DNA of 55,893 nucleotides, taken from positions 1 through 55,893 of the forward strand of contig CANRNG010000003.1 of the NCBI GenBank assembly GCA_947631935.1, read 5' to 3'. A program made the translations under genes and the position numbers. The notes under the pieces are model-generated. The model was not told the origin of the DNA, did not search any database, and worked only from the letters and a program-made list of their open reading frames with translations. This DNA comes from an uncultured Erysipelothrix sp. (lineage in GTDB: Bacteria; Bacillota_I; Bacilli_A; Erysipelotrichales; Erysipelotrichaceae). Of this stretch, positions 21,120-55,893 are shown piece by piece (the stretch's first letter is position 1; every line of letters starts with the position of its first letter).

Positions 21120-22967
21120 CTATTTTTGGTTTGAACGAGGGTCCATAGCATCCCTTAGCGCATCACCAATTAAGTTGACACTCAATGCTGCCAATAAAAC
21201 AGCACCTGCAGGCAAGAGCCATTGCCACCAATAGCGTTCAATAACAATGGAGTTAACAACACCATTTAACATATTTCCCCATGAAGGTGACGGTGATTTA
21301 ACACCAAATCCTAAGAAAGAAAGACCCGCTTCAGTGAGTAAACTTGAAGCATAACCCAATGTCATATTAACAATGATTAAGTTAAAGACAGAAGGTAAAA
21401 TATGTTTAATGATGATTGTAGATTCTTTTAATCCCAATGCTCGCGCAGCAAGCACAAAATCTTTTTCTCTTTCAGCCAAAATTTGACCACGAACCAATCG
21501 GGCAACACCCGGCCAAGAAATAACTCCCAGAACCACCATAATCATTAACAGTCTGGTATTTTGAGATGTATCAACCGGTAATAAAGCAGACAAAGTAATC
21601 GCCAATGGCATAAATGGAAAGGCCGAAATAACCTCTGCAAAACGCATAAGGAGATTGTCGATTATACCGCCATAGAAACCAGCAATTAATCCAACAGTAA
21701 CTCCGATGAATACAGAAATAATGATCGCAACGGCACCAATAATTAAGGATACACGACCACCATGAAGCAATCGAGTGGCAACATCACGGCCAAAGCCATC
21801 TGATCCAAGTCTAAATCCTTTTAGTCCCCAACCATTGACACTGCCATCTTCACTTACAGCAAAGGAATTATAGTAAGCACTAAAGATGTTGCTTACGTCG
21901 CTATTGTTTACTTTCGTAGGTACTTCTGTTAAACCATATTTTCCAGTACCCACTGAATGAACTGTGCCGTCTTCTGTTAAGAAGTTAAAAGATTTTAGTG
22001 TAGAGCTTATTTTAACAATCTTACTATCATATTGTGGTAAATCGCTCATACTTACCCCAGAAATACGTCCCCATCCATGTAAATTACCTTGGTCATCCAA
22101 AGCAATCACAGCCGTTTCTGAAGCCGTTACTTGCACAATATTGGTAGAACCGTCTTGGAGATGTTCAGGTAGGTTCGTATAAACTTCCGAACCACGAATA
22201 CCTGCTACCGCAACCGTACCATCATCTAAAATCAAGATTAGGTTAAATGGAGCCACTGCAAAATCAACAATTCTACCCTGATAGTCTCTAGAAATAGAAC
22301 TTAAGTTATTTGCATTTGTACTACCCCAAACATAAACGTTTCCATTTTCTGTGAGTACTAAAGAATAACTTGAATGGGCACCAATTTTTACAATTTTATC
22401 ACCCACAAGACGTTGTTTCACTTCACTTGGAAACTCGGATTGATTAAAGTTATTCCAACCCGCTCCAATAATATCACCCGTATTGGTTAATGCAATCACA
22501 TGTCTTGCACCTGAGGCAACAGAAACAATGTTTTTGCCTTCTGTTTTCTCTACAATTTCAGATGGATACATCATATGTCCAGGATCTTTACCCCAAAAGT
22601 ATAATTCGCCATCTTCATCCAATCCAACTGAGTAAGAAACACCTGTTGCAATTTCAACAGGGTTGTTTAATTTTTTACTTACTTTTAAGTAATTCATAGA
22701 AGGACCAATATTTTGCAGTGCTGTATCATGATCATACTCATTATAAGCAGGACCAACAGCTGTACCAACAAATACAACCGCAAAAATTAAAATAAATGTA
22801 ACAAGTCCAACAATTCCCATTTTATTTTCAAAAAAGTTACGTTTAATTTGCTGACTCGGACTTAATAAAGCATCATTATCGATTTCTTTATTTTTATTAG
22901 TGAACAGTCTGGCTATCATACTGGTAAAACTTTTACCTACGGAGGTTTTATTATTTTTTTCTTTCAT
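21120..22967 (-). CDS. oppC: Oligopeptide permease OppC with inserted RCC1-like beta-propeller
   Basis: This 615-residue protein is about twice the usual OppC length. Residues 1-80 hold a cytoplasmic tail and the first membrane helix. Residues about 95-375 contain seven RCC1-like repeats, each with a pattern like VGLDEDGELYFWG, VLTENGNVYVWG or ALDDQGNLHGWG. The sequence then returns to canonical OppC at RLGSDGFGRDVATRLLHGGR, followed by five membrane helices and the EAA-type loop with ARALGLKESTIIIKHILPS. By OppC topology the propeller lies outside the membrane, near the substrate-binding protein. It follows oppB by 14 bases. Confidence 0.92.
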   Translation of the reverse strand: MKEKNNKTSVGKSFTSMIARLFTNKNKEIDNDALLSPSQQIKRNFFENKMGIVGLVTFILIFAVVFVGTAVGPAYNEYDHDTALQNIGPSMNYLKVSKKLNNPVEIATGVSYSVGLDEDGELYFWGKDPGHMMYPSEIVEKTEGKNIVSVASGARHVIALTNTGDIIGAGWNNFNQSEFPSEVKQRLVGDKIVKIGAHSSYSLVLTENGNVYVWGSTNANNLSSISRDYQGRIVDFAVAPFNLILILDDGTVAVAGIRGSEVYTNLPEHLQDGSTNIVQVTASETAVIALDDQGNLHGWGRISGVSMSDLPQYDSKIVKISSTLKSFNFLTEDGTVHSVGTGKYGLTEVPTKVNNSDVSNIFSAYYNSFAVSEDGSVNGWGLKGFRLGSDGFGRDVATRLLHGGRVSLIIGAVAIIISVFIGVTVGLIAGFYGGIIDNLLMRFAEVISAFPFMPLAITLSALLPVDTSQNTRLLMIMVVLGVISWPGVARLVRGQILAEREKDFVLAARALGLKESTIIIKHILPSVFNLIIVNMTLGYASSLLTEAGLSFLGFGVKSPSPSWGNMLNGVVNSIVIERYWWQWLLPAGAVLLAALSVNLIGDALRDAMDPRSNQK

Positions 22968-35667: not shown

Positions 35668-35700
35668 AAAAAAAGAAGACAGGGCCTGCCTAATCTTCTT
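35668..35700 (-). terminator. Terminator of the corC-like gene
   Basis: AAGAAGA and TCTTCTT flank an inner AGGCAG/CTGTCT-type pairing, and eight T residues follow on the minus strand. The stop codon of the gene lies inside the hairpin. Confidence 0.85.
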
Positions 35701-37021
35701 TCTCATCTGTATCGAGTTTGGTAATACGCAGTTTTGAAATAACTTTTTCATCAACATCCACAATGGAAAAATGATAGCCATTGAAATCAAAGTCTGCTTC
35801 ATTCCCTTCAATGTCTTCAAGATGGGGCAATCTGCCAATCTCACCCACCGCAAAACCACTGACTGTATCATAATCATCAATCGGTAAATCAATATTTAAA
35901 ACTTTCTCAAGCTCATCCAAATAAGACGAACCTTCTACCAAATATTCATTTTCATGAACTTCTTGAATGAAGACAGCTTCTTCCTCATCATACTCATCCA
36001 TAATATTACCCATAACCTCTTCAATTAAGTCTTCCAGTGTAACAATACCAGCAGTACCACCGTATTCATCAATTACAACCGCGATATGCGTCTTATTACG
36101 GGTAAGCTCTGCAAACAGAACATCCGTTCTTTTTGACTCAGGCACAAAGTAAGGTTTACGAATAAAGTTCCTTAAATCAAAGGCTTCTGCAGTTTTATTG
36201 TGTTGAAGATATTTCAAAATATCTCTTAAATGAAAAATACCAATAATATTATCAATATTATTTTCATAAACTGGGTAACGGGTAAATCGCTCATCAGAGA
36301 GCTGTGCCATCAAACTATCAAAGTCTGTATCAATATCAATGGCAACAATATCAGTTCTATGAGTCATGATATCCCCAACTTCGAGGTTATCAAACTCAAA
36401 TATATTTTGAATCATTTCTTTTTCGCTTAAATCAATTTCACCCGCTTCAACCAGTAATCTAATTTCTTCCTCTGTCACCTCATCATGCTTGTTGGGATCA
36501 ATACCCAACAACTTAAGACATAGATTGGTGATTAAAGATAAAAGTCTAACCAAAGGCAAAAACACGGTCGCCATTGCCGTGATTGGATGAATAACCAATA
36601 ATGAAAACTTCTCAGAATGGGCCATCGCAATTCTCTTAGGAACCAATTCACCAAAAATTAACATCATGAACATGGTGATAAAGGTAATTAAAATCATCGC
36701 AATGGGTCTAAAGAATGCAAAATTCACTGCGCCATTGGTGATAGAAACAATCCAATAGGATAAACCATCCGCAAATGCATCCGCCGCGAAGGCACCCGAT
36801 AACATACTGGATAGCGATACACCAATTTGAATTGCTGATAAAAAATCTGTAGGTGATTCTACCAATTTTAATACTTTCTTTGCACGACGGTGTCCTTTAC
36901 CGGCCATCGCCTTAAGCTTCATTTGATTTACAGAAACAAAAGCCATTTCTGATCCCGCAAAAAATGCGTTCATAATAATTAAAAAGATTAAAATCAATAT
37001 TTGAATACCGGTACTATCCAT
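35690..37021 (-). CDS. CNNM/CorC-family (HlyC/CorC) membrane transporter
   Basis: This 443-residue protein has an N-terminal DUF21/CNNM membrane domain (about 1-190, four hydrophobic helices with FFAGSEMAFVSVNQMKLKAM), a CBS pair (about 210-330, with MTHRTDIVAI and HIAVVIDEYGGTAGIVTLEDLIEEVMG) and a C-terminal CorC_HlyC domain (about 345-435). Relatives in Bacillus and Staphylococcus act in magnesium efflux, with ATP-Mg binding at CBS. The start ATG overlaps the stop of a short upstream ORF, so translation is probably coupled. Confidence 0.92.
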   Translation of the reverse strand: MDSTGIQILILIFLIIMNAFFAGSEMAFVSVNQMKLKAMAGKGHRRAKKVLKLVESPTDFLSAIQIGVSLSSMLSGAFAADAFADGLSYWIVSITNGAVNFAFFRPIAMILITFITMFMMLIFGELVPKRIAMAHSEKFSLLVIHPITAMATVFLPLVRLLSLITNLCLKLLGIDPNKHDEVTEEEIRLLVEAGEIDLSEKEMIQNIFEFDNLEVGDIMTHRTDIVAIDIDTDFDSLMAQLSDERFTRYPVYENNIDNIIGIFHLRDILKYLQHNKTAEAFDLRNFIRKPYFVPESKRTDVLFAELTRNKTHIAVVIDEYGGTAGIVTLEDLIEEVMGNIMDEYDEEEAVFIQEVHENEYLVEGSSYLDELEKVLNIDLPIDDYDTVSGFAVGEIGRLPHLEDIEGNEADFDFNGYHFSIVDVDEKVISKLRITKLDTDEKED

Positions 37022-37070
37022 TGAAAAGTACCTCCAAATTCAAACACCTATCTCGATCTGATTCTTCCAC
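37014..37070 (-). CDS. Short acidic leader ORF upstream of the corC-like gene
   Basis: GGAGG (37078-37082) is followed after seven bases by GTG at 37070 (an ATG at 37076 in the same frame is too close). The frame encodes 18 residues, MEESDRDRCLNLEVLFNG, and its TAG stop lies four bases inside the corC start (ATGGATAG). The corC ribosome site lies within the ORF. Acidic N-terminal runs are known to destabilise ribosomes at low magnesium in E. coli MgtL; a similar sensor role here is inference. Confidence 0.5.
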   Translation of the reverse strand: MEESDRDRCLNLEVLFNG

Positions 37071-37092
37071 AAACATTCCTCCATTTTCTATT

Positions 37093-37121
37093 ATATTAGT
37101 GTATTTATTTCTCAATGTCAA
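37093..37121 (-). promoter_or_regulatory. Promoter of the corC leader transcript
   Basis: Minus strand TTGACA (37116-37121), exactly 17 bases, TAATAT (37093-37098). Initiation near 37086 would put the leader GGAGG site within a few bases of the mRNA 5' end. Confidence 0.7.
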
Positions 37122-37648
37122 ATACTCAGATTGACTTCTTGAATCGCAGCTTTATCAAATTGCAATAACGGCTGCTTGGTTGCATTCAATTGATTGGCCA
37201 CCATATTCCCTGGAAAAGTTTCAATGCGACTGTTAAAATGCGTCACATTTGAATTATACAAACGTCTCGCTGCCGACAGATGTTCTTCTGTATCTCTAAT
37301 GGCATCTTGAAGCCCCAAAAACTGCTCACTGGCCTTTAAATCAGGATACCCCTCAACTAAGACATTAATTCTACTAAAATCAGATTCAACAGAAGTCATT
37401 GCTTTTTCTTTCATTTCAATGGGCATGCCTCTACGTATTTCAACAATTGATAATAGAGTCTCTTTTTCGTGTTTAGCATATCCTTTAACCACTTCAACCA
37501 ATTGCGTTAAAACAGAATAACGCTTGGCCAAAGCCACATCAATATTCGCAAAAGCTTCTTCAACCTTTAAATTGGTACGCTTAATATCGTTAAACACCGA
37601 TACATACCATATGATAGGTAAAACCACTATTAATAAAATCCAAATCAT
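37118..37648 (-). CDS. lemA: LemA-family protein
   Basis: This 176-residue protein has an N-terminal membrane helix (about residues 1-18) followed by a long helical bundle with the family signature VEEAFANIDVALAKRYSVL and EVVKGYAKHEKETL. LemA proteins are anchored with most of the chain on one side of the membrane; their molecular function is not settled. Here it is cotranscribed with a DUF3137 protein (2 bases apart), a pairing also seen in other Firmicutes-like genomes. Confidence 0.9.
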   Translation of the reverse strand: MIWILLIVVLPIIWYVSVFNDIKRTNLKVEEAFANIDVALAKRYSVLTQLVEVVKGYAKHEKETLLSIVEIRRGMPIEMKEKAMTSVESDFSRINVLVEGYPDLKASEQFLGLQDAIRDTEEHLSAARRLYNSNVTHFNSRIETFPGNMVANQLNATKQPLLQFDKAAIQEVNLSI

Positions 37649-37650
37649 AC

Positions 37651-38391
37651 TTACAATTCCCTCTCCACTTCAAACACCTTGGCATACTCTAAAACCTTTA
37701 AAATTGAAGATTTAATTTCCTCTTGATAATTTTCTTTTTTTATTTCACCAAAAAATTTTGGCTCAAACATATCTTTATTGGAATATATCGCAATATGAAG
37801 TTCATCATTATCAAAATAAAACGAAACATTTTTATCACTTATCTCTAATAGTTTAAGCAATTTGGTTGGATTTAACATATAAAATGCTTCATGACCACTT
37901 TCTGTATAAATTCTAAATTCCTTATTAAACGCAATACTTTCAAGTTCAATTTTTTCCAAACTGTGATCTTTCCCAAAAAGAAATCCCTTAGGATTGGAAT
38001 GTGCGAAGTTACGATCAATAACGTAAAGTCTTCCATCAATCTTACGTTTCGGCTTCACAATAATCCATTGCCCTCTAAAGTAGGTTGTCGTAACGGTAGA
38101 ATCTTTCGTTTTCGTTACATTTTGAATCAGTACATCCGAGAATTCAAATGAAACACCCTCGTAAGTCGCCTTAAGATAATCTTCTGATCGATAAGTATTT
38201 CCACTTGAAACAAGTTTTGTTTGATAAATACGATCTCTTTGAAACCCTTGAGTATGACCATATTCCACTTCACCAAAAATTTCTTTTAAAACAGGATAAA
38301 CAACATCACGCTTAAAAGCCTTTTTTCTTTGATGCGTGTAAATCGACACCCCAATCACAATTATGAATATTAGAAAAAACAATCCAAACAT
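37651..38391 (-). CDS. DUF3137-like membrane protein
   Basis: This 246-residue protein has a single N-terminal membrane helix (about residues 2-19) and a soluble domain of alternating beta-strands: VSFEFSDVLIQNV, TTTYFRGQWIIVKPKR, SIAFNKEFRIYTESGHEAFYML, ELHIAIYSNKDMFEP. This matches DUF3137 as I remember it; no catalytic motif is visible. It sits between lemA and the MacB-like permease on the same strand. Confidence 0.7.
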   Translation of the reverse strand: MFGLFFLIFIIVIGVSIYTHQRKKAFKRDVVYPVLKEIFGEVEYGHTQGFQRDRIYQTKLVSSGNTYRSEDYLKATYEGVSFEFSDVLIQNVTKTKDSTVTTTYFRGQWIIVKPKRKIDGRLYVIDRNFAHSNPKGFLFGKDHSLEKIELESIAFNKEFRIYTESGHEAFYMLNPTKLLKLLEISDKNVSFYFDNDELHIAIYSNKDMFEPKFFGEIKKENYQEEIKSSILKVLEYAKVFEVEREL

Positions 38392-46427: not shown

Positions 46428-49145
46428 TTAGCCCTTCATTACGTCATGACAACGATCACAAAGACCGTCTTCATGAGCATGATCCACAACATTCCAGCAC
46501 CGTGGACAAATAACACCGTCATTAAAGACAACATCCACTTCAAAACCTAAAACTTCAGGCAGTGTTTCTTCCACAAAACTGACTTTAGATACGATGAGCC
46601 ATTGGGCTAAGCGTGATCCTAAAAGCTGGTCGACTAAAGCTTTATCTTCACTATTTAGGTTAAGTCTTACATGTCCTTCCAATGATTTACCAATCACTTT
46701 GGCAGCCCGTTTTTCTTCAAGTGCTTTAAACACGGCATCTCTTAATTCAAATAAACGCGTAAAGCCTTTTACTTCTGCTTCGGATAATAAATCATCATAA
46801 ACAGCCGCAAAACGATCTAAGTGAACACTTTCATCTTCGGGTCTGAAGATGCTGTTAAATTCCTCAGTAGTATGAACCAAGATGGGTGCCATCAGTCTTG
46901 AATAAACCATCAAAGCTTCATAAAGCACGGTTTGGATTTCACGGCGTGAGACTGAATCTGATTTCTCAATGTAAAGGATGTCCTTGGTGTAATCTAAATA
47001 GTAGGCACTCATGAGGTTGGTAAGTGCGGTACTGACCGTCGTGGTTACACGTTGGAAATCATAGGCCGTATAGGCATCTTGGGCAATCTTATTGTGTTTG
47101 TTGACTTCATTTAAAACATAACGATTCAATGGGCTCATGGCTTCATGAGATACTTTATCACTTTCGTAATCAAAATCAGCCAAGTTACCATGCATAAATC
47201 TGAATGTATTTCTAATTTTACGGTAGTTTTCAGACACTTGTTTTAAAATATTTTCGGAGAAAGGTGCATCGGATTGATAATCGACTGAAGCAACCCAAAG
47301 TCTAAGGATATCTGCACCCAAAGTATCAAAGATTGCTTTAGGACTTAGCGCGTCCCCTTTTGACTTACTCATTTTTTCCTTACCATCTTCTTGCATCACA
47401 AATCCATGACTTAACACCGCTTTATAAGGTGCGTGGTCATACACGGCAGATGAGATGATGAGTGACGAGTTAAACCAACCACGGTATTGGTCACTACCCT
47501 CTAAGTAAAGATCGACTGGAAGGGGTGCATTTTGCCCTGCAGTATGGGATGATCCAGAATCAAACCAAACATCCATGATGTCCTTCTCTTTTTTAAACTG
47601 ACCATTGGGACTGCCTGGGTGGGTAAATCCTTCCGGTAATAAATCTTTGGCTTCTCTTTCAAACCAAACATTGGAACCATATGCTTCAATTAAAGACACA
47701 ATATGTTTAAAGACCGCTTCATCCACAATCGGTGTTTCATCTTCAGCATAGATAATTGGAATGGGCACACCCCAAGCACGTTGGCGGGAAATGGTCCAAT
47801 CGCCCCGATCCTTAATCATGTTATACATTCTACGTTGACCCCATGCTGGCATCCAAGATACCTCATTATCAATGATTTCTAAAACACGTTCTCTAACTTG
47901 GTCAATGGACGCAAACCATTGGGTGGTTGCACGGTAAATAATAGGTTTTTTCGTACGCCAGTCGTGGGCATAGGAGTGGGTAATCCAACCTTGTTTTAAA
48001 AGTGCTCCCACTTCATGGAGGGCAATTGAAACTTCTTTATTGGCTTTCTCAAAAAACATGCCTTCAAAAGGTCCTGTAACGGCTTTTAAATGGCCCTTAT
48101 CATCCACAGGTTCAATCGGTTGAATACCATACTTCTTACATACCTCAAAGTCATCTACCCCATGGTCAGGTGCCGTATGGACACATCCAGTTCCTGCTTC
48201 TTCAGTAACATGGTCCCCACAAAGAATGGGACTCAAACGATCATAGAGTGGATGTTGGGTGGTAATGCCTTCTAAATCAGATCCTTTAAATGTTTTTAAA
48301 ACAGTATGATCCTCAATTTCGAGAACCTTTAAAACATTTTCATAAAGGGATTTACCCAACACAAGATTTCCCTTATCTGTTTTAACCAAAACATAATCCA
48401 TCTCTGGATTAACTGAAATGGCTAAGTTAGCAGGAATGGTCCAAGGTGTGGTGGTCCAAATCACGAAATAGTCCGATTCACTTAAGATATCTTTACCATC
48501 CACAACTTTAAATCTAACATAGATTTCCGGGTCTTTTCTGTCTTTATATTCAATCTCAGCTTCTGCCAAGGCTGTTTCACTGGAAGGTGACCAGTGTACC
48601 GGGCGAAGTCCTTTATAAATCATGCCGCGCAATGCCATCTTCGCAAAAATTTCGACTTGTTTGGCTTCATAACTTTTATTTAAAGTAATGTAGGGATTTT
48701 TATAGTCAGCAACTGTTCCCAGTGCTTTAAAATCCGCAATTTGAATTTTAACTTGTTCACGTGCATAGGCTTCACAAAGTTTTCTAAATTCAGCTACCGA
48801 CATTGATTTACGATCAACCCCTTGTTTTTGAATTTCAACTTCAATGGGAAGTCCATGCGTATCCCAACCAGGAATATAGGGCGTCTTATAACCTGCCATA
48901 AATTTAGAACGCACAATAAAGTCTTTTAAAGACTTATTTAAAGCGTGTCCAATATGGATATTACCATTGGCATAGGGTGGGCCATCATGAAAAGCGAAAG
49001 TTTTAGCACCTTCACGTTTGGCTACCATCTTTTCATAAAGTTCCATTGTATCCCAATCTTTTTGGATGAGATGTTCTTTCTTATTCAAATTACCGCGCAT
49101 CTCAAAATCAGATTTTGGTAGATGCAGTGTGTCCTTATAGTCCAT
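46428..49145 (-). CDS. ileS: Isoleucyl-tRNA synthetase
   Basis: This class I synthetase has about 905 residues. It has the HIGH motif in PYANGNIHIGHALNKS (about residue 64), the editing domain with TTTPWTIPAN and the GTGCVHTAPDHG site, KMSKS in EKMSKSKGD (about 600), an anticodon-binding domain, and a C-terminal zinc ribbon with CPRCW and CDRC. I take the ATG at 49145, about ten bases after AAGGAG; the ATG at 49154 is only one or two bases from it. Expression is governed by the T-box at 49170-49365. Confidence 0.96.
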   Translation of the reverse strand: MDYKDTLHLPKSDFEMRGNLNKKEHLIQKDWDTMELYEKMVAKREGAKTFAFHDGPPYANGNIHIGHALNKSLKDFIVRSKFMAGYKTPYIPGWDTHGLPIEVEIQKQGVDRKSMSVAEFRKLCEAYAREQVKIQIADFKALGTVADYKNPYITLNKSYEAKQVEIFAKMALRGMIYKGLRPVHWSPSSETALAEAEIEYKDRKDPEIYVRFKVVDGKDILSESDYFVIWTTTPWTIPANLAISVNPEMDYVLVKTDKGNLVLGKSLYENVLKVLEIEDHTVLKTFKGSDLEGITTQHPLYDRLSPILCGDHVTEEAGTGCVHTAPDHGVDDFEVCKKYGIQPIEPVDDKGHLKAVTGPFEGMFFEKANKEVSIALHEVGALLKQGWITHSYAHDWRTKKPIIYRATTQWFASIDQVRERVLEIIDNEVSWMPAWGQRRMYNMIKDRGDWTISRQRAWGVPIPIIYAEDETPIVDEAVFKHIVSLIEAYGSNVWFEREAKDLLPEGFTHPGSPNGQFKKEKDIMDVWFDSGSSHTAGQNAPLPVDLYLEGSDQYRGWFNSSLIISSAVYDHAPYKAVLSHGFVMQEDGKEKMSKSKGDALSPKAIFDTLGADILRLWVASVDYQSDAPFSENILKQVSENYRKIRNTFRFMHGNLADFDYESDKVSHEAMSPLNRYVLNEVNKHNKIAQDAYTAYDFQRVTTTVSTALTNLMSAYYLDYTKDILYIEKSDSVSRREIQTVLYEALMVYSRLMAPILVHTTEEFNSIFRPEDESVHLDRFAAVYDDLLSEAEVKGFTRLFELRDAVFKALEEKRAAKVIGKSLEGHVRLNLNSEDKALVDQLLGSRLAQWLIVSKVSFVEETLPEVLGFEVDVVFNDGVICPRCWNVVDHAHEDGLCDRCHDVMKG

Positions 49146-49169
49146 GTATTTCATTCTCCTTTTTTTGTA

Positions 49170-53839: not shown

Positions 53840-53963
53840 GGGAGGTGGTTTGTTTGAAATCTCGAAGTTTGAATTCAGTAGCGTGTGGACAAAAGATGGA
53901 TGAAGACCCCGGGTCGCAAACCTCCCGTACTTTAATCTGTCTTCTGTAAATTAATTATAGAAG
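53840..53963 (+). promoter_or_regulatory. Structured mgtA leader
   Basis: GGGAGG and TTTG (53840-53845 and 53849-53852) pair with CAAACCTCCC (53917-53926), closing a roughly 90-base domain that contains GACC-CCG-GGTC (53905-53915). A second hairpin, CTTCT (53941-53945) with AGAAG (53959-53963), runs into the mgtA ribosome site. It looks like a regulatory leader. It does not match the M-box or yybP-ykoY consensus as I recall them. Confidence 0.5.
53854..53949 (+). CDS. Leader ORF upstream of mgtA
   Basis: A TTG eight bases after GGAGG opens a 31-codon frame ending at TAA 53947-53949, 25 bases before mgtA. Its middle reads QKMDEDPGSQTSRTLICLL. The internal Met followed by Asp-Glu-Asp-Pro resembles E. 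coli MgtL, whose Glu-Pro-Asp-Pro start destabilises ribosomes when Mg is low. The stop falls in the hairpin that shields the mgtA ribosome site. A competing TTG frame (53850-53903) exists. Real translation is untested. Confidence 0.45.
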   Translation: MKSRSLNSVACGQKMDEDPGSQTSRTLICLL

Positions 53964-53974
53964 GAGAGAATATT

Positions 53975-55893
53975 ATGAAATTTGATATTAAAACGATTCT
54001 AAAGTTGCAACATGATGCACTTTATAAAACGTTCAATGCTAAAGAAAAAGGCTTCACACAGGAAGAAGCTGAAGATCTACTAGAAGAAACAGGACCCAAT
54101 GAAATTACCAAACAATCAAAACCACATCCCATTATTGGGTTTGTGAATGTCTTGGTCAACCCCTTCAACCTCGTCTTGATGGTCGTCATTGCCATTACCT
54201 TTATCAATGATATTCTCATTGAAAAATCTGGTGATTACTTAACACTCATTATATTATCCGTGGTCGTACTATTTTCAACCTTGGCATCATTCATTCAAGA
54301 TGAAAGAGCCAGTGCTGCTGGAGAAAAACTTTTGGATATGGTATCCAATACCACCGCAGTCTTAAGAGATGGAAAATTTGTAGAAACCGCCATCAGTGAT
54401 ATCGTTTTGGGTGATATTATTCGTTTGTCTGCTGGAGATATTATCCCTGCTGATTTACGAATCGTGTCTGCTAAAGACCTCTTTCTTTCCCAAGCAACCT
54501 TAACTGGAGAATCACTCCCCATTGAAAAGTTTGTCTATCTTGATGAAGAAAATATGGACCAAGAAACAGACTACACCAACTTGGCCCTCATGGGAACCAA
54601 CGTAGTGTCCGGTTCAGGCAGTGCCATCGTCATCAGACGGGGCGACAATTCTTACTTGGGTAATATGGCCAAATCCATGCGTAACATTAAAGTAGTGAAT
54701 CGCTTTGAGGCCAGTATTTCAACCATTTCAAAACTATTACTCAAATTAATGTTTCTCATGTTACCGATCATCTTTATTATCAACGGTATCCTCAAACAAA
54801 ATTTTGTGGATGCATTCCTCTTTGCTTTAACAGTGGCAGTGGGTTTAACCCCTGAAATGTTGCCCGTGGTCTTAACCAGTGGCTTAAGTCGGGGTGCCAT
54901 CAATATGGCCCGCCACCAAACCATCGTTAAATCACAAGCATCGATTTCAACCTTTGGTGAAATGGACATTCTTTGTACAGATAAAACAGGAACCATTACC
55001 CAAGATGAAATTATCTTAGAACGCTATATGGATGTTAAAGGTGACGACGATATGCGCATTTTGCGTCATGCCTACCTTAACTCCTATTTCCAAAGTGGCC
55101 TTAAAAACTTAATTGACTTGGCAATCATTACCCGAGCTGAAAGCTATAATATGCATGACTTGATCAATTACTATGATGTTGTCGATGAAATTCCATTTGA
55201 CTTCGCAAGAAGAAGAATGTCAGTCATTCTTGAAGATGATTCTGGCAAACGCCAACTCATCACCAAGGGTGCTGTAGAAGAAATTGTGACAAACTCAAAA
55301 TATATTGACCGTGATGGTGAAGTCTTCCTACTGGATGATGCAACCCGTGAAGAAGCCATGGAAGTGTATACCCAACACAATAACGATGGTTTACGTATGA
55401 TTGCGGTCGCTCAGAAAAACAACGTTCCAGACACCCATGAATTTGCGGTAGAAGATGAATCCGACCTCGTATTGATTGGATTTATTGGGTTCTTAGATCC
55501 GCCTAAAGAAAGCGCAAAACCCACCATCGAAAGTCTTCACGATCATGGTGTGGATGTGGTCGTCATTACCGGAGACTCCTTGGGCGTGGCTAAAAAAGTA
55601 TGTTCAAAAGTGGGGATTAATACTGACATTACTTATTTGGGAAATGATATTGACGCCATGAGTGATGAAGAACTTGAAAATATTGTGGATACATGTAACC
55701 TCTTCGCTAAAATATCCCCCACTCAAAAACAACGCATTGTTCAAGCGTTCCAAAATAAAAATCATACGGTAGGATTTTTAGGAGATGGCATCAATGATGC
55801 CTTGGCACTCCAACAAGCAGACGTGGGTATCTCAGTGGATACTGCGGTTGATATTGCGAAAGAATCTGCCGACATTATTCTACCCAAAAAAGA
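53975..55893 (+). CDS. mgtA: Magnesium-translocating P-type ATPase (C-terminus outside window)
   Basis: The first 639 residues of a P3B-type ATPase are present. There is an N-terminal cytoplasmic part with QEEAEDLLEETGPNEI, two membrane helices, the actuator domain with SQATLTGESLPIEK, helices M3-M4 with VAVGLTPEMLPVV, the phosphorylation motif CTDKTGTITQDEI, the nucleotide domain with FDFARRRMSV-type segment, and VVVITGDSLGVAKKV and GFLGDGINDALAL. The PEMLP helix is typical of MgtA/MgtB. It imports Mg at low supply. AGGAG precedes the ATG. Confidence 0.94.
   Translation, partial: MKFDIKTILKLQHDALYKTFNAKEKGFTQEEAEDLLEETGPNEITKQSKPHPIIGFVNVLVNPFNLVLMVVIAITFINDILIEKSGDYLTLIILSVVVLFSTLASFIQDERASAAGEKLLDMVSNTTAVLRDGKFVETAISDIVLGDIIRLSAGDIIPADLRIVSAKDLFLSQATLTGESLPIEKFVYLDEENMDQETDYTNLALMGTNVVSGSGSAIVIRRGDNSYLGNMAKSMRNIKVVNRFEASISTISKLLLKLMFLMLPIIFIINGILKQNFVDAFLFALTVAVGLTPEMLPVVLTSGLSRGAINMARHQTIVKSQASISTFGEMDILCTDKTGTITQDEIILERYMDVKGDDDMRILRHAYLNSYFQSGLKNLIDLAIITRAESYNMHDLINYYDVVDEIPFDFARRRMSVILEDDSGKRQLITKGAVEEIVTNSKYIDRDGEVFLLDDATREEAMEVYTQHNNDGLRMIAVAQKNNVPDTHEFAVEDESDLVLIGFIGFLDPPKESAKPTIESLHDHGVDVVVITGDSLGVAKKVCSKVGINTDITYLGNDIDAMSDEELENIVDTCNLFAKISPTQKQRIVQAFQNKNHTVGFLGDGINDALALQQADVGISVDTAVDIAKESADIILPKK

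Follow-up and report, generated by a model that had tools for sequence, protein, structure and literature searches.

Upstream of a gene for a CNNM/CorC-family transporter, in the 55,893 nucleotides of an uncultured Erysipelothrix sp. that we have analysed (here called the window), there is a short leader ORF with an acidic start, the stop codon of which overlaps the start of the transporter gene. That this ORF exists, is conserved, is constrained at the level of the peptide and has this overlap geometry is well supported. The explanation that we favour, and that we consider probable, is that the leader peptide is coupled to the CNNM gene, a Mg2+ exporter, and that its early acidic residues make the ribosome sensitive to Mg2+, i.e., intrinsic ribosome destabilisation (IRD). 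Leader expression, translational coupling, ribosome drop-off and Mg2+ as the signal are all inferred, and this organism has not been the subject of experiments.

The leader ORF in the window and in its relatives

The CNNM gene (35690-37021, minus strand, like all the features of this locus) codes for 443 aa with CNNM, two CBS and CorC_HlyC domains (Pfam), and the closest solved structures by PDB similarity are those of archaeal CorB (7m1t/7m1u). Both Mg2+ as the ion and the direction of export are inferred from the family. A sigma-A-like promoter (37121-37093, 10 of 12 consensus matches) consists of a TTGACA -35 box (37116-37121) and, after a 17-nt spacer, a TAATAT -10 box (37093-37098). It is followed by a Shine-Dalgarno (SD) sequence, GGAGG (37078-37082), 7 nt before the GTG (37070) of the leader ORF VEESDRDRCLNLEVLFNG (37014-37070), which has 18 codons and ends with a TAG at 37016-37014. 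The peptide, V/M-EESDRDRCLNLEVLFNG as read directly from the sequence, carries its acidic segment EESDRDR in codons 2-8 (37047-37067), where most relatives have ENSDQDS. The TAG overlaps the CNNM ATG at 37021 (ATGGATAG), and the SD of CNNM, GGAGGT (37035-37030), 8 nt before the ATG, lies within the codons of the leader. Direct reading thus confirmed what the first-pass annotation had described, namely the promoter, the GGAGG, the 18-codon ORF with its TAG over the CNNM start and the ribosome site of CNNM inside this ORF. The span that it gave, 37014-37121, is right when counted from the -35 box, but the ORF itself covers only 37014-37070. No terminator was found near the window leader. Upstream of CNNM there are a lemA-like and a DUF3137 gene (37118-38391, minus strand), the stop codon of the former falling inside the TTGACA of the leader promoter, and read-through transcription from the lemA-like gene is not excluded.

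All 13 Erysipelothrix genomes examined had the CNNM gene, each time behind a GTG-started uORF that has an SD and whose end touches or overlaps the CNNM start. Absence or frameshift of the ORF in close relatives, which the first-pass annotation had named as a result that would refute its interpretation, was looked for and not met, the uORF, its acidic start and its overlap or abutment with CNNM being kept in 13/13 genomes. The first nine residues are conserved, mostly as VENSDQDSC or VENSDQDSY, with VEESDRDRC, VKDKDDCCS, VEHNEEDSC and VVNSDGDSC as the divergent starts. The tails vary in sequence and in length (in total from 18 codons up to 44 in one count and up to 52 in another), and despite this variation no stop codon interrupts the frame before the CNNM start, where it ends. 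The conserved N-terminus and the tight linkage to CNNM might suggest a small functional protein or an exporter subunit, but we regard this as very improbable, since conservation is limited to some nine residues and the tails differ so much.

Within codons 2-9 the acidic residues persist while their codons change (GAC/GAT), and the acidity is found also in starts such as VKDKDD, VEHNEEDS and VEESDRDR. The in-frame pS was 0.47 against a pN of 0.21, a contrast that was absent or weaker in the two other frames (pS/pN of 0.24/0.26 and 0.33/0.22). Given the short stretch compared, this is only a modest test. The acidity itself could be judged against a control that was blind to it. We applied a rule requiring an SD of at least 5 nt, 12-60 codons and a stop at the gene start to 365 genes, those of the window together with a 400-kb part of a second, closed Erysipelothrix chromosome (G002). 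It returned 12 coupled uORFs, of which just two had at least three D/E in codons 2-8, the window CNNM uORF and its G002 orthologue. The acidic coupled uORF before CNNM is not a chance occurrence, because of this control result and because both the uORF and its acidic start are found in 13/13 genomes.

A cis-acting RNA element, riboswitch-like and open in one frame only by accident, would fit the high nucleotide identity seen in part of the genus, but it is hardly credible in view of the in-frame excess of pS over pN and of the structure searches. Rfam returned no leader element in the window plus 20 homologous loci, no covariance model of a metal riboswitch (M-box, yybP-ykoY) matched the CNNM leader (only a T-box appeared elsewhere in the window), and consensus folding of the CNNM leaders gave neither a consensus fold nor covariation. 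The mgtA leaders gave nothing by consensus folding either. The single-sequence fold of the window in the region of the CNNM start had a GGUACU/AGUACC stem, which was discarded (z = 0.19), the matching bases being absent from the nearest relative. There was neither a regulatory codon run nor a terminator/antiterminator at the window leader, as would be found in an amino-acid attenuator of the trp type. Likewise, alternative RNA structures or a terminator under leader control, of the mgtL/mgtQ type, were not found for the window leader, which has the start/stop overlap instead.

Acidic starts of CNNM genes beyond the genus

A rule of the same acidity-blind kind identified a coupled uORF in 28 of 90 CNNM loci of the family and order, belonging to 8 genera; within the family, SD-led uORFs that stop at the start of CNNM occurred in 7 genera besides Erysipelothrix. 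At least two D/E were present in codons 2-8 of 27 of these 28 uORFs, e.g., MDEDSSGII, MTEDSEGCD, MNDDPGDED, MNDDTGCDQR, MSDSSDLSR and VEETDPSS. In the exception (L054) the rule had chosen an upstream start, and the downstream one gives MSDEGSG.

Acidic leaders in other arrangements were found in the wider class, in named Clostridia and in Acholeplasma-type genomes. One of them, MEDSSSGQRTT... (L113), ends at the CNNM start, and a leader of the form MEDCSSRIDDP...FFGVFFCC... crosses an intrinsic terminator before ending there (e.g., L122, L124, L130, L134, L228). Among those of the MDDNPGDRRSS...KRP type, five stop 7 nt into the stem of an intrinsic terminator (L178, L179, L180, L185, L202), and the leader of L098 also ends in or at the 5' arm of one. 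Judging from the geometry, in these two terminator-linked arrangements the terminator would be covered or melted by a ribosome that reaches the end of the leader. Several clostridial CNNM leaders (L178, L179, L180, L185, L202, L176, L181, L190, L196) end with GRP, KRP, RRP or YYPRP (or KRL) just before the stop, an ending on which selection may act through the peptide or merely through the sequence of the stem.

Where there is no leader, it is often the CNNM protein itself that starts acidic and frequently D-P-rich, following the pattern MDDPxP/MDxDP (MDDPQGSS, MDVDPEPS, MDTDPAGTS, MDDPGPAT, MDIDPDLF). With one representative per genus in the family and order, residues 2-8 of CNNM contained 0.23 D/E when a leader was present versus 1.42 when it was not (one-sided P = 5e-5). 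For this comparison, the terminator-type leaders and the representatives were assigned by eye with the acidity visible, which introduces some selection bias. In the leaders, codons 2-8 had on average 2.75 D/E and 0.41 K/R (one per genus), compared to 0.54 D/E in the control genes. This enrichment and its P values carry a selection bias too, as leaders outside the genus were partly recognised by their acidity; the unbiased evidence is that of the 365-gene control and of the acidity-blind scan of the 90 loci.

The feature is not universal. Some CNNM homologues (e.g., L028, L047, L060, L092) have neither a uORF nor an acidic N-terminus. A CNNM paralogue, with about 33-38% identity to the window protein, had no ATG- or GTG-started acidic leader in 19 loci, some of them with a mildly acidic start, and is a useful negative control. 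In a sister order, four loci (L018, L020, L022, L023) have a conserved leader upstream of CNNM, AAAGGGAGTAGTTAGCATC...ATCGTCATCACGC...CCGG...AACGAGACTTTTATT. By eye these resemble yybP-ykoY, an assignment that we rejected for lack of an Rfam match even at lax thresholds, and they may represent an unrecognised metal riboswitch of CNNM genes.

Proposed Mg2+ sensing by the ribosome and its alternatives

Acidic residues near the N-terminus of the nascent chain destabilise the ribosome, an effect that Mg2+ counteracts and for which MgtL is the example, with EttA and bL31 as modulators (PMC11282234, PMC11552253); early acidic residues in mgtL and mgtQ control Mg2+ transporters (PMC11282234, PMC8092293). 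The window leader has sequence traits of this type, being an SD-led short ORF directly upstream of a predicted Mg2+ transport gene, conserved in relatives, and carrying among its first ~30 residues acidic ones that stand side by side or are separated by one residue (EE and DRD in the window, ENSDQDS in the genus) and that are kept at the peptide level, although without the proline that such leaders often have. It also resembles the coupled YoaL-mgpA pair, in that its stop overlaps or abuts the CNNM start in 13/13 genus genomes.

If IRD operates here, at high cytoplasmic Mg2+ ribosomes would get through the acidic stretch to the stop codon overlapping the CNNM start, where handover by termination-reinitiation and unmasking of the CNNM SD would turn the exporter on. 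At low Mg2+ they would drop off within the acidic stretch, so that translation of CNNM would fall and the exporter would be off. For an exporter the useful sign is to be on at high Mg2+, and every architecture seen would give it, the ribosomes that pass the acidic stretch either reaching the CNNM start, blocking the formation of the terminator or continuing into CNNM. We infer that completed translation means CNNM on, because the coupled uORF, the terminator-linked uORF and the acidic N-terminus of the protein itself all imply the same sign. There are weak points. Drop-off may be weak at the window uORF, which lacks proline and in which EE is the longest acidic run, and the strong SD of CNNM could allow independent initiation.

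Among the closest known systems is YoaL-MgpA (YoaE) of Salmonella and E. coli, where the gene for a CorC-domain exporter has a short leader ORF that overlaps its upstream region. Loss of YoaL or mutation of its start lowers MgpA, and both mgpA and corC are induced by high Mg2+ in Enterobacteria (PMC12421838). However, MgpA is a TerC-CorC protein, unlike CNNM, and that YoaL takes part in the response to Mg2+ has only been suggested (PMC12421838). The N-terminus of E. coli CorC (YbeX) contains an IRD sequence, for which a lowering of CorC synthesis at low Mg2+ has been proposed (in work cited by PMC12421838). The logic is the one of the acidic-N-terminus CNNM genes, with the difference that the IRD is in the protein itself, whereas in Erysipelothrix it would be in a separate overlapping ORF. 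MgtL-mgtA of E. coli and Salmonella (EPDP motif) is alike in having early acidic residues in the leader of a Mg2+ transporter gene and Mg2+-dependent drop-off (PMC11282234), but there drop-off turns an importer on through control of Rho termination; for CNNM the predicted sign is the opposite and no such switch was found. In MgtQ-mgtB of Salmonella an intergenic acidic small ORF (Asp2, Glu5) also controls translation of a Mg2+ transporter (PMC8092293). It does so through alternative stem-loops, abort freeing the RBS, while the CNNM leader has no conserved stems.

Two other explanations cannot be excluded. One would be plain translational coupling, in which the uORF would do no more than open the start of CNNM and maintain stoichiometry or efficiency, its purine-rich acidic codons aiding initiation without any sensing. 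The overlap geometry alone would suffice for this, and initiation can benefit from GA-rich codons that follow the start. Nevertheless, we consider it unlikely, given the 2.75 D/E against 0.41 K/R in codons 2-8 although AAA and AGA are equally purine-rich (with the caveat on selection given above), and the terminator-based versions would not need acidic codons for initiation. The other alternative is that the leader responds to a different signal (amino-acid supply, pH, a polyamine, an arrest ligand or another metal, e.g., Mn2+ or Co2+), and that it might do so by stalling and not by drop-off. For some CorC/CNNM proteins, transport of other ions or an effect on them has been described (PMC12421838), and S with a later R or C recurs beside the acidity (SSGQR, SDQDSC). 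That Ser, Arg and Cys keep appearing close to the acidic positions may point to selection for more than charge. Yet the letters of the motif vary while the acidity stays, there is no run of a single residue as in amino-acid attenuators, and the same acidic feature precedes mgtA and is found in known Mg2+ genes, all of which makes another signal quite unlikely in our opinion.

Mg2+ control in Gram-positives is usually ascribed to the M-box riboswitch. In the literature searched, IRD-based Mg2+ sensing was found only for Enterobacteria and no report of such leaders in Bacillota was found, which is weak evidence, most subscription journals being outside the search. The principle is known from Enterobacteria, and what appears to be new is the coupled CNNM leader, the variants tied to terminators and the way in which the acidic stretch changes place between a leader and the N-terminus of CNNM itself. 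If the Mg2+-sensing interpretation is true, the Mg2+ dependence of the ribosome itself would be a general sensor in Bacillota too, with opposite sign for an exporter (CNNM) and an importer (mgtA), and the exporter genes would provide natural tests of acidic nascent chains acting through translation coupling versus transcription antitermination. We see evenly balanced prospects for a broader proposal, in which the CNNM exporters of Bacillota are widely controlled by an acidic "Mg2+ fuse" in the nascent chain, a mode of control that may be ancestral. The fuse would be movable between the own N-terminus, a coupled leader and terminator-tied leaders, one rule with several architectures. Leader ORFs of this kind are below the usual gene-calling size, which points to gaps in annotation.

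The mgtA leader and other features of the window

The window contains a second acidic leader ORF, LKSRSLNSVACGQKMDEDPGSQTSRTLICLL (53854-53949, plus strand), with a TTG start and the motif DEDPGS, 25 nt before an mgtA-type P-type ATPase gene (53975-55893, plus strand) that runs off the window end. An equivalent ORF with a DDDPLG/DEDP motif was found in 11 Erysipelothrix genomes; it was not seen in genome L040, and G001 had no close mgtA match. The motif is DDDPLG in 9 of the 11, where each of the three Asp codons varies between GAT and GAC, and the leaders stop 23-45 nt before mgtA without overlap. The suggestion of the first-pass annotation that the two Mg-type genes share a ribosome-based principle of control holds at the sequence level, the mgtA leaders keeping DDDPLG (DEDP in the window) through synonymous GAT/GAC changes. 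For both genes, Mg2+ as the signal and ribosome abort as the mechanism remain an inference, with no ribosome profiling or reporter data. As for other Mg2+ transporters, no acidic leader ORF was found at CorA in the 8 genus loci inspected, and MgtE was not found in the genus Erysipelothrix.

Some genomes have an mgtA SD that could pair with the leader codons GAC-CCC-TTG. Outside the genus, the mgtA leader of L136 starts MEDSPRR... and is followed by a terminator. Elsewhere in the window, an ordinary T-box leader (RF00230, 49188-49404, minus strand, 112.9 bits) precedes the gene for a class I aminoacyl-tRNA synthetase (46428-49154). Besides, an oligopeptide-permease-like protein (21120-22967, minus strand) has an unusual mix of domains, BPD_transp_1 and OppC_N with RCC1-type repeats between the permease parts.
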